This document shows, in pieces, positions 59,570-61,909 of a DNA stretch of 64,000 nucleotides. The stretch is taken from positions 1,116,001-1,180,000 of the forward strand of contig NZ_WVHS01000001.1 in NCBI RefSeq assembly GCF_009834915.1, read 5' to 3'. This stretch comes from Hufsiella ginkgonis (lineage in GTDB: Bacteria; Bacteroidota; Bacteroidia; Sphingobacteriales; Sphingobacteriaceae). How positions within the stretch are numbered: position 1 is the first letter of the stretch; the number at the start of each line of letters is the position of its first letter. The notes under the pieces were generated by a model. The model was not told where the DNA came from. It saw only the letters and a list, made by a program, of their open reading frames with translations, and did not search any database. The position numbers and the translations under genes are program-made.

Positions 59570-60379
59570 CTAAAAGATATTATACAAATTATATTCCACC
59601 CGCACCAGGTACTTGTTCTTAACTGTTCGCCGCATATTGTTCCATAGCTGCAGCTGCCGGGAAGCATCCACCCGCACCTTGCTGCCGAAGATGAATTGCA
59701 CGGCAGGTGCAACGTCCATCAGGTGCTGGTTTTTTCCGGGATTCGACTTCCCGAGAAACTCGAGGTATAAATTCATATTCGTTTGCTTGTAATCTTTATA
59801 CACCCTGGGGAATACCAGGTAGCCGGAAGAAAATGTGTAACCGATGCTTTCTGAAGGGTAGCCGTGAAGCGCATGGTGTGTATCGTTCACATCCAGCATA
59901 CGGGTATAACTTGCCGAAGCAGACAATGCCAGCTTATGCAGTAGCTGGGTGACGATCAGCCCGCCCTGGATGCCGGTATTATCGCCCTCCAGGCTGATGT
60001 CGTCGTTCACCATCAGGTTCTTGCTTGAGGTATACCTGCCGAAAACGGCGCTGCGGGTATGGCGCTGTACCCTGTCGGCCGACAAAAACCGGTACTTGGC
60101 GTAAAAAGAAACGGCCTCCAGGCGTTGTTGCTTCCTGTAATAGTCTGACAGATAAGCGCTTGCATGCACCATCAGGTTCTTGGTGACACCAGTCATCAGC
60201 TCCAGTCCCGTGCGTGTACGGATCTCTGAGCCGAACATGCCTTCGTTCATTAACCGGATGCCCAGGCCGCCGCGCGGCATATTGCTGGCTGGCTCGGTAG
60301 ATACATAAAGCTCCTGCGCAAAGAGGTCCCCGGCCGGCAGCATGGCTGCGACCAGGAAGATCTTTATCATCCGTTTCAT
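59570..60379 (-). CDS. Outer membrane beta-barrel protein linked to heavy-metal proteins
   Basis: The 269-residue protein has a signal peptide (IFLVAAMLPAGDLFAQ) and then alternating aromatic/polar strands (GGLGIRLMNEGMFG, KNLMVHASAYLSDYY, RSAVFGRYTSSKNLMVNDDI, SIGYTFSSGYLVFP, MNLYLEFLGKSNPG) ending in VRVEYNLYNIF. The closing aromatic Phe is typical of outer membrane barrels. Its start overlaps the stop of the HMA protein gene (ATGA), so it is coupled to the metal cluster and may move metal or metal-ligand complexes. No porin family could be named. Confidence 0.8.
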   Translation of the reverse strand: MKRMIKIFLVAAMLPAGDLFAQELYVSTEPASNMPRGGLGIRLMNEGMFGSEIRTRTGLELMTGVTKNLMVHASAYLSDYYRKQQRLEAVSFYAKYRFLSADRVQRHTRSAVFGRYTSSKNLMVNDDISLEGDNTGIQGGLIVTQLLHKLALSASASYTRMLDVNDTHHALHGYPSESIGYTFSSGYLVFPRVYKDYKQTNMNLYLEFLGKSNPGKNQHLMDVAPAVQFIFGSKVRVDASRQLQLWNNMRRTVKNKYLVRVEYNLYNIF

Positions 60380-60900
60380 CAGATGGTTACGTGAACAACT
60401 TTATCCTTACCCATCACACCGCTCTTGTAGCATGAATAGGTGGTTTGCGCGGCATACTTTTTAAAATCGCCGGCCGGGATGAAGTCCTTGTTGATCACGG
60501 TTAGCTTTACTTCGCCATCGAGCGTTTTCTCGGCGACATTCATAAAATGATAGAGCTTGCCCTCGTAACGATAGTGAAAGTTGTTACTGATGGCTACCTG
60601 ATCAAAGCTGAGCGTTACCACCAACTTGCTTACCGAAAACCCTGCCGATTTAACCTTTGACTTAATCTGGTCGAGGTCAACCGATTGGCCTTTCTTAAAG
60701 ATTAACGTGTACACACCCGTATTCAGGTTTGGCTTAATTTCGCCGATAAAGCCGAGGGTTTTAAGCGATTTCTCTGTAGCCAGCTGGCACATAGAGCAAG
60801 TAAGCCCGCTCACCTGCACTTCGGCACGGGTTTGCGACCAGGAAGTATGAGAGGCTATGAGAAGTGCAGCGATTGCCGCTGCTATTTTGAAGATTTTCAT
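60379..60900 (-). CDS. Secreted heavy-metal-associated (HMA) domain protein, CSMC type
   Basis: The 173-residue product has a signal peptide (FKIAAAIAALLIASHTSWSQ). An HMA-like ferredoxin fold (about 25-95) follows, with metal motif GLTCSMCQLATEKSLKTLG (CxxC as CSMC). A C-terminal extension from about 95 to 173 (LVVTLSFDQVAISNNFHYRY, LYHFMNVAEKTLDGEVKLTV) holds one further Cys (TTYSCYKSG). Usual HMA chaperones are cytoplasmic and about 70 residues, so the exported longer form is unusual. It lies between another HMA gene and the barrel gene, suggesting copper or similar metal handling in the periplasm. Confidence 0.87.
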   Translation of the reverse strand: MKIFKIAAAIAALLIASHTSWSQTRAEVQVSGLTCSMCQLATEKSLKTLGFIGEIKPNLNTGVYTLIFKKGQSVDLDQIKSKVKSAGFSVSKLVVTLSFDQVAISNNFHYRYEGKLYHFMNVAEKTLDGEVKLTVINKDFIPAGDFKKYAAQTTYSCYKSGVMGKDKVVHVTI

Positions 60901-60985
60901 CGTGTTTGGATTATAGTGAACTTGATTGGGAAACAGAGAATGGCCAGGCCATACCTGGCCATTCTTTGTTTCTATTCTCTACACA

Positions 60986-61333
60986 TTATTGCACAGGTGC
61001 GCGATCATACCGGCAGCATTCGTCTAACTCGCTGTAAGCTTTGTCGTTAGCACGAACTTTGTCGGTATCGTAACCGGCTGCGGCCACTTTCTGGTGGATC
61101 TGCCCGAGCTTGATCTTCTGGGGATCGTACGTAACGGTTAGCTTCTTGGTGTCTTCGTTCCACGAAGCTTTGGTTACGCCATCAGTTTTAAGCGCGGTTT
61201 CGATGTGTTTTTTGCAGGCGCCACAGTTACCATAAACTTTAAAAGTGGTGGTTTCCGGCTTGGTATCCGCAAAAACGGGAGATAGCGTGATAAGGAGGAA
61301 TAAGGTTAAAAAAGAAATTTTCAATGTTTTCAT
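60986..61333 (-). CDS. Secreted HMA domain protein, CGAC type
   Basis: The 115-residue product has a signal peptide (ISFLTLFLLITLSPVFA) and one HMA domain (about 27-95) with metal-binding NCGACKKHIETALK (CGAC). TKKLTVTYDPQKIKLGQIHQ and KVAAAGYDTDKVRANDKAYS complete the fold. The short tail ends ELDECCRYDRAPVQ, and its Cys-Cys pair may add a third metal ligand site. Secreted MerP-like proteins of this size act as periplasmic scavengers of mercury or copper. A copper role fits the HYC_CC_PP neighbour upstream. Both genes are on the minus strand with about 85 bases between them. Confidence 0.9.
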   Translation of the reverse strand: MKTLKISFLTLFLLITLSPVFADTKPETTTFKVYGNCGACKKHIETALKTDGVTKASWNEDTKKLTVTYDPQKIKLGQIHQKVAAAGYDTDKVRANDKAYSELDECCRYDRAPVQ

Positions 61334-61418
61334 GATTTGATTTTTTGTGATTAAATGTAAACACCTGCAGCAACGGTCCGCAGCATAGGCATTAAAGCCT
61401 GGAGAAAACGGTCAATCA

Positions 61419-61802
61419 TCAAATCCTGAACACGCAGTTCCGGATGGTAAGGGGTACCGGGGCTACGGGTGGCGAGTGCGCGGCCGAAACGGCTTGCCAG
61501 GCGTGCATCGAAAACTGTGCGGAAAAACAGCTCAAAGTAAGTACAAACAGATCGATTCCCGTTGGTACCGGCGCTTTCGCGATCATTCCGGTAGCATGTT
61601 CATCCGCTATGCGAACGGTCACCTTTTTGTTCTTGCAGCATTTATCTTCTTTCTCCGAAAGTGCCTTGCAGCACGATTTTGCCGCCTGGTTAATAGAAAC
61701 CTTCGAAAGCTTCTTTCCGCAGAAATGCAGGCTCATGGCGAACCCGGTCGAGGTGACCAGGTAAATACACAATACCATAATTGCTGCAATGCGCTTTGCC
61801 AT
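61419..61802 (-). CDS. HYC_CC_PP family cysteine-rich protein
   Basis: The 127-residue protein has an N-terminal hydrophobic segment (AAIMVLCIYLVTSTGFAMSL) followed by HFCGKKL (HxC), AKSCCKAL and DKCCKNKK (two CC pairs). A second hydrophobic stretch (GIDLFVLTLSCFSAQFSM) precedes SPPVAPVPL and the terminal NCVFRI. The order HxC, CC, CC, PP and the final FRI are the marks of the Bacteroidota HYC_CC_PP family, which is often found beside copper or other metal transport genes. Function unproven; metal binding by the Cys pairs is likely. It is the first gene of the minus-strand metal group. Confidence 0.85.
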   Translation of the reverse strand: MAKRIAAIMVLCIYLVTSTGFAMSLHFCGKKLSKVSINQAAKSCCKALSEKEDKCCKNKKVTVRIADEHATGMIAKAPVPTGIDLFVLTLSCFSAQFSMHAWQAVSAAHSPPVAPVPLTIRNCVFRI

Positions 61803-61849
61803 TATGCAAAAGTACGATGATTTGATGCAGAAAGTATCATCGGCGTATC

Positions 61850-61885
61850 AAAAAAAAAATCCCGTTATGTTTAAACATAACGGGA
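61850..61885 (-). terminator. Rho-independent terminator of the OmpA-family gene
   Basis: The perfect 26-base palindrome at 61860-61885 (TCCCGTTATGTTTAAACATA then ACGGGA) is followed on the minus strand by ten T residues (A tract at 61850-61859). It lies 24 bases past the OmpA-family stop and before the HYC_CC_PP gene, separating the two. Confidence 0.9.
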
Positions 61886-61909
61886 CCCGTAGATATATGA
61901 TGGAGTTAA

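Follow-up and report, generated by a model that had tools for sequence, protein, structure and literature searches.

The locus occupies positions 59570-61802 of the window, that is, of the whole 64,000-nucleotide stretch of Hufsiella ginkgonis DNA that was analysed. The four open reading frames described there by the first-pass annotation were confirmed, all on the minus strand, and they succeed one another as HYC, HMA1, HMA2 and the barrel gene, with intervening gaps of 85, 85 and -1 bases (Table 1). The HMA2-barrel junction had been described as an ATGA coupling; it reads TGATG, and the two genes share one base, not four. All four products start with an export-signal-like sequence and, judging from these starts, are presumably exported.

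Table 1. Positions of the genes and sequence features of the locus, with one neighbouring gene from a related locus.
Feature	Position	Strand	Description
HYC	61419..61802	-	small Cys-rich protein, 127 aa, 8 Cys, export-signal-like start, HYC_CC_PP
HMA1	60986..61333	-	115 aa, export-signal-like start, GNCGAC site, C-terminal CCxYxR
HMA2	60379..60900	-	two-domain, 173 aa, export-signal-like start, GLTCSMC site and C-terminal domain
Barrel	59570..60379	-	predicted outer membrane beta-barrel, 269 aa, start overlaps HMA2 stop (TGATG)
TACTTTTG	61807..61814	-	directly 5' of HYC, read from sequence
Terminator-like hairpin and T run	61857..61888	-	3' of upstream OmpA-type gene, 14-pair stem
Met/His-rich protein (example)	L061:8813-10219		

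HYC passed the NCBIfam model NF047658 at 50.6 bits (cut-off 28). Both HMA proteins passed the Pfam HMA model PF00403 (cut-off 24.8), HMA1 at 50.9 bits with CGAC as its CxxC site and HMA2 at 26.1 bits with CSMC. Against the curated MerP model TIGR02052 (cut-off 92.55), HMA1 scored 43.6 bits and HMA2 14.8 bits; against the CopZ model NF033795 (cut-off 91), the scores were 40.1 and 32.5 bits, respectively. MerP gave the best NCBIfam score of HMA1, below its cut-off. The extra "ECC" that had been pointed out in HMA1 proved to be part of a CC-x-Y-x-R motif, which was invariant in 8 of 8 aligned sequences, the window's included; these eight HMA1-type sequences also have G-[N/E]-C-x-x-C in common. 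The description of the group as exported, Cys-rich and of soft-metal type is supported.

The hairpin sets the OmpA-type gene apart from HYC. Its stem was the longest among 6 terminator-like sites, where 3.3 sites were expected by chance. The TACTTTTG element resembles TAnnTTTG, which we take to be the Bacteroidota -7 element. Comparing 7-mers over the 250 bp that precede HYC, across 86 loci, revealed no shared operator, and the HYC upstream regions had only a -7-like element in common with the copA upstream region. Downstream of the barrel, a bacillithiol-transferase type gene (NF009807) lies in the opposite orientation.

Conservation of the HYC-HMA2-barrel order

The gene order was compared in 115 loci, and 105 distinct loci were kept after 10 near-identical barrels were dropped. 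They comprise 85 Sphingobacteriaceae-like loci, the window included (family loci), and 20 distant loci, a division that follows the way in which the loci were retrieved; a few members of the first group are named merely as Bacteroidetes or Sphingobacteriales. The 80 named loci are the best 80 of 357 relatives, so that the sample leans to Mucilaginibacter and Pedobacter.

HYC, HMA2 and the barrel gene were found in that order in 85 of 85 family loci. Of these, 81 were read directly from the gene caller; the window adds one, its HMA1 standing between HYC and HMA2, and tblastn completed the remaining three, L031, L081 and L096. The genes missed by the gene caller and recovered later were HYC in these three loci, HMA2 in L081 and HMA1 in the distant locus L166. 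Since the order recurred in every family locus, the adjacency is far beyond chance.

The order of four genes suggested by the first-pass annotation therefore stands for three of them, while HMA1 was present in 1 of the 85 family loci, the window alone, and a four-gene unit including HMA1 was rejected on this count. Relatives of HMA1 precede HMA2 in 12 of the 20 distant loci, where they lie behind HYC or behind another Cys-rich gene. HMA1 is part of a broader family. At E 1e-12, its profile, into which extension columns from three longer members also entered, gave matches in 70 of the 151 family genomes. In the best-scoring 29 HMA1-family loci outside the window, examined with 1.5 kb on each side, a Cys-rich gene adjoined in 28 and a P-type ATPase core lay within the flanks in 16. 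In several family genomes, HMA1-like domains were seen inside open frames of about 850-1037 aa, as if fused to a large protein, some of them in tandem copies.

In 15 of the 20 distant loci, HMA2 immediately precedes the barrel gene and shares its strand; in L160 and L166, a TlpA-type gene lies between the two. Two weak-match barrel relatives of 253-254 aa are followed by a 106-aa single-domain HMA protein (L172:7055-8159 and L173:6790-7891), which is possibly the same partnership in reverse order. No HMA2 was found beside the barrel relative of L168. Altogether, 104 of the 105 distinct loci, which span several families, have an HMA2-profile match either among the three genes that precede the barrel or in the gene that follows it.

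The distribution among genomes follows the same pairing. Counting the genome of the window, 15 of the 60 relatives have the barrel, so the unit is patchy; across the phylum, the barrel profile matched 27 of 395 genomes, five of them weakly (E 5e-12 or worse). HMA2 was present in 15 of 15 barrel-bearing relatives vs 2 of 45 without the barrel (Fisher p 2.6e-12, computed ignoring relatedness). The two matches outside the barrel-bearing genomes, which bring the total among the 60 relatives to 17, are a strong one in G014 and a weak one, interrupted by stops, in G016. The match in G014 is full-length (G014:C9:115935-116432), and no barrel was found in that genome. HYC was present in 43 of the 60 relatives, mostly in genomes without the barrel. 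Judged from sequence and gene order, HYC, HMA2 and the barrel are a conserved unit in one family and some relatives. The shared role of barrel and HMA protein, for which the first-pass annotation had cited the overlap of their genes, is probable in view of the near-obligate pairing of HMA2 with the barrel.

Predicted structures of HMA2 and the barrel

The AlphaFold model of HMA2 (pLDDT 88.8) comprises two domains. The first, from residue 25 to about 90, has the HMA fold and resembles Atx1 and CopZ, and its GLTCxxC site was invariant across 48 aligned HMA2 sequences, the window's included. In the fold search, whose matches cover residues 21-99, copper chaperones and copper-ATPase domains ranked first, narrowly ahead of ZntA and MerP (Z 7-8). 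When run against PDB sequences, the HMA2 profile aligned through its first domain, mainly with copper ATPases and CopZ. The second domain was confidently predicted as five strands and two helices, and the strand-helix order in this model is reminiscent of an OB fold. HMA2 has the same fold and CxxC site in its first domain as the CopZ/Atx1 chaperones and MerP, but it differs from them in its apparent export signal, its second domain and its scores below the curated CopZ and MerP cut-offs.

The barrel was predicted by AlphaFold as 12-stranded, with a mean pLDDT of 89.2. It had no Pfam match up to E 1, a chance-level match only in NCBIfam (E 0.039, far below cut-off), no match of its profile to PDB sequences up to E 1, and no match among plasmid records. 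Its nearest folds were FapF, a COG4313 channel (4rl8), KdgM and NanC (Z 18-21), which have the 12-stranded architecture in common with it over approximately 170-220 residues, but only about 10% identity. The known roles of these four proteins are not in metal handling. The solved PcoB structure was not among the 50 fold matches listed for the barrel.

The barrel contains no Cys and no conserved Met cluster, and it has one invariant His; it is therefore not an obvious soft-metal channel. The conserved polar residues alternate along the strands (K95 and R97; H107 and R109; N201, N203 and E207; R236 and D238), which suggests a conserved charged lumen, the alternation indicating which side of the modelled strands would face inward. 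Metal passage through such a lumen is possible.

These properties bear on whether the barrel might serve another envelope role and be merely co-transcribed with metal genes. The missing thiols and Met cluster, the closest folds being 12-stranded barrels of unrelated role and the barrel relative of L168 without a detected HMA2 would all be in keeping with such a role. Nevertheless, the HMA2-profile match near the barrel in all but one of the distinct loci, though single-domain in L172 and L173, makes it very unlikely.

Neighbouring genes and metal pumps

The genes within seven positions of the unit were typed and counted with profiles built for this analysis, and Pfam was run on a few representatives. 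Among the 85 family loci, DUF3347-type genes were found in 39, YceI-type in 25 and AraC-type in 24. The 20 distant loci contained TlpA-type genes in 10, Cys-rich type in 8, DUF3347 in 6, AraC-type in 5 and DsbD-type in 2. HMBD proteins were also among the neighbours. A Met/His-rich protein of 451-551 aa was encoded beside the unit in 27 of the 85 family loci, and in all but one of the 27 (26) its gene is the next one after the barrel. It is a putative outer-membrane protein, and the one example scanned matched neither Pfam nor NCBIfam models at E 0.001 or better. In one locus (L094:5128-8813), two HYC genes flank the gene of the Met-rich protein upstream of HMA2 and the barrel.

The first-pass annotation had remarked on the absence of a P-type ATPase, a CusA-type pump and a multicopper oxidase. 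Locally this holds, since the genome has four ATPase (E1-E2 ATPase) and nine RND (ACR_tran) matches above cut-off, one of the nine a fragment, and none of them lies inside the window. For the multicopper oxidase domain, the whole genome gave no PF07732 match at E 0.01, whereas 8 of 14 control genomes were positive. What cannot be maintained is that the lack of a pump is exceptional: none of the 84 other family loci showed an ATPase core next to the unit in the stretch fetched, and pumps are encoded elsewhere in the genome. The ATPase on contig C20 carries the CPC and DKTG motifs and passes TIGR01511 at 609.8 bits (copA); its cluster (L043:9712-12755) continues behind copA with the genes of a 71-aa HMA protein and of an AraC-type regulator. 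A cadmium-type ATPase is encoded on C1, at a distance of approximately 97 kb from the unit.

Among the 104 other loci, the fetched stretch contained an ATPase core in 6, every one of them a distant locus; in 13 of the 104, one flank of the barrel covers less than 5 kb, so that absences at those loci are weak. RND genes were near the unit in 3 of the 104. A "CopA" called by profile at L089 was withdrawn, as no ATPase core was found at that locus.

As no ATPase core was found near the unit in the family loci, what ties these loci to copper is the regulator, DUF3347 and the Met-rich protein. The AraC-type protein of the copA cluster scored 224 bits against the profile of the unit-associated AraC-type regulators. 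This regulator family, common by sequence to the copA cluster and the unit loci, is the best, though indirect, link between the window's unit and copper.

The ATPases of the distant loci also bear on the possibility that the same architecture handles another soft metal, i.e. silver, mercury, cadmium or zinc. In L167, a cadmium-type ATPase, which passes TIGR01512 at 485 bits and fails the copper model, lies directly upstream of HMA2 and the barrel, and the highest NCBIfam score of HMA1, albeit sub-cut-off, was for a mercury-type model, MerP. However, the remaining five ATPases (L154, L155, L156, L157 and L165) scored 586-591 bits with TIGR01511 (cut-off 397) and, although they also pass the cadmium model, scored lower there; moreover, the best matches of HMA2 were copper proteins. 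Another metal thus appears quite improbable to us.

The neighbours of the distant loci raise a different alternative, in which the unit would supply or repair copper for exported cuproenzymes, e.g. cytochrome oxidase, instead of conferring tolerance, with the barrel as an entry pore and HMA2 as the delivery protein. The TlpA-type genes near the unit in half of the distant loci, and the DsbD-type genes in two, fit periplasmic thiol reduction. PcoB, an outer-membrane barrel of copper defence, is reported to pass copper inward (PMC9210255), which would suit an entry pore. On the other hand, 0 of 85 family loci had a TlpA- or DsbD-type profile match near the unit, no oxidase or SCO gene was among the 10 neighbours scanned with Pfam, and the Cys-rich and Met-rich partners resemble sequestration. 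We therefore regard a supply function as unlikely.

Proposed copper handling in the periplasm and outer membrane

The reading that we favour, with moderate confidence, is that the unit serves periplasmic and outer-membrane copper handling, with the pumps encoded elsewhere. The observations in its favour are the conservation of the genes, the near-obligate pairing of HMA2 with the barrel, the predicted folds and the copper-type neighbours in relatives. Counted against it are the failure to find an ATPase core near the unit in the 84 other family loci, the upstream comparison with copA, which yielded only a -7-like element, the cadmium-type ATPase of L167, the ATPases that pass both models, the barrel without thiols, the occurrence of HYC mostly without the barrel and the patchiness of the unit.

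In the proposed mechanism, Cu(I) would be bound by the exported thiol proteins on the outer side of the inner membrane: HYC would serve as a Cys-rich trap and HMA2 as a carrier of the Atx1/CopZ type, with HMA1 as an extra carrier in the H. ginkgonis genome. HMA2 would act jointly with the 12-stranded barrel dedicated to it, and the unit would thereby lower or control periplasmic copper, while CopA, encoded elsewhere, would clear the cytoplasm. We infer from these observations that the metal is copper and that HMA2 and the barrel would be in physical contact; the copper may leave the cell by this way, or it may enter in a PcoB-like manner for periplasmic storage. Going beyond this, the second domain of HMA2 might dock on the barrel and form a carrier-gated copper pore that works without a TonB receptor or an RND pump, an idea that we put forward as a tentative and rather doubtful one.

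The proposed arrangement can be compared with known copper systems. Pco/Cop, with its PcoB barrel, is the nearest precedent. Like it, the unit encodes a predicted outer-membrane barrel together with putative copper-binding proteins that are presumably exported. However, HMA-type proteins stand in place of PcoA, PcoC and PcoE, no PF07732 multicopper oxidase domain was found in the genome, the Met-rich protein near the unit has no Pfam match up to E 0.001, and the barrel matches no Pfam model up to E 1, that of the PcoB/CopB family included. In CusCFBA efflux, a periplasmic copper carrier works with an outer-membrane component, and a predicted carrier and an outer-membrane component are also found in the unit; but no RND match was found in the window or, at 101 of the 104 other loci, close to the unit, and the barrel is predicted to be a simple 12-stranded one, not a TolC-type tunnel. 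In Bizionia argentinensis, another member of the Bacteroidota, the copper genes include HMA proteins, pumps and a TonB receptor (PMC11213822), whereas the passages of that study on the gene set mention no such barrel.

A description of the HYC-HMA2-barrel unit was not found in the open-licence PMC literature, in which copper transit across the outer membrane of Bacteroidota is little described. The barrel, for which neither Pfam, nor the curated NCBIfam models, nor the PDB sequences gave a match, nearly always has a two-domain HMA protein as its partner and is a candidate for this outer-membrane step. If the docking model is true, these Bacteroidota would have a carrier-gated outer-membrane copper route, separate from the inner-membrane pumps.
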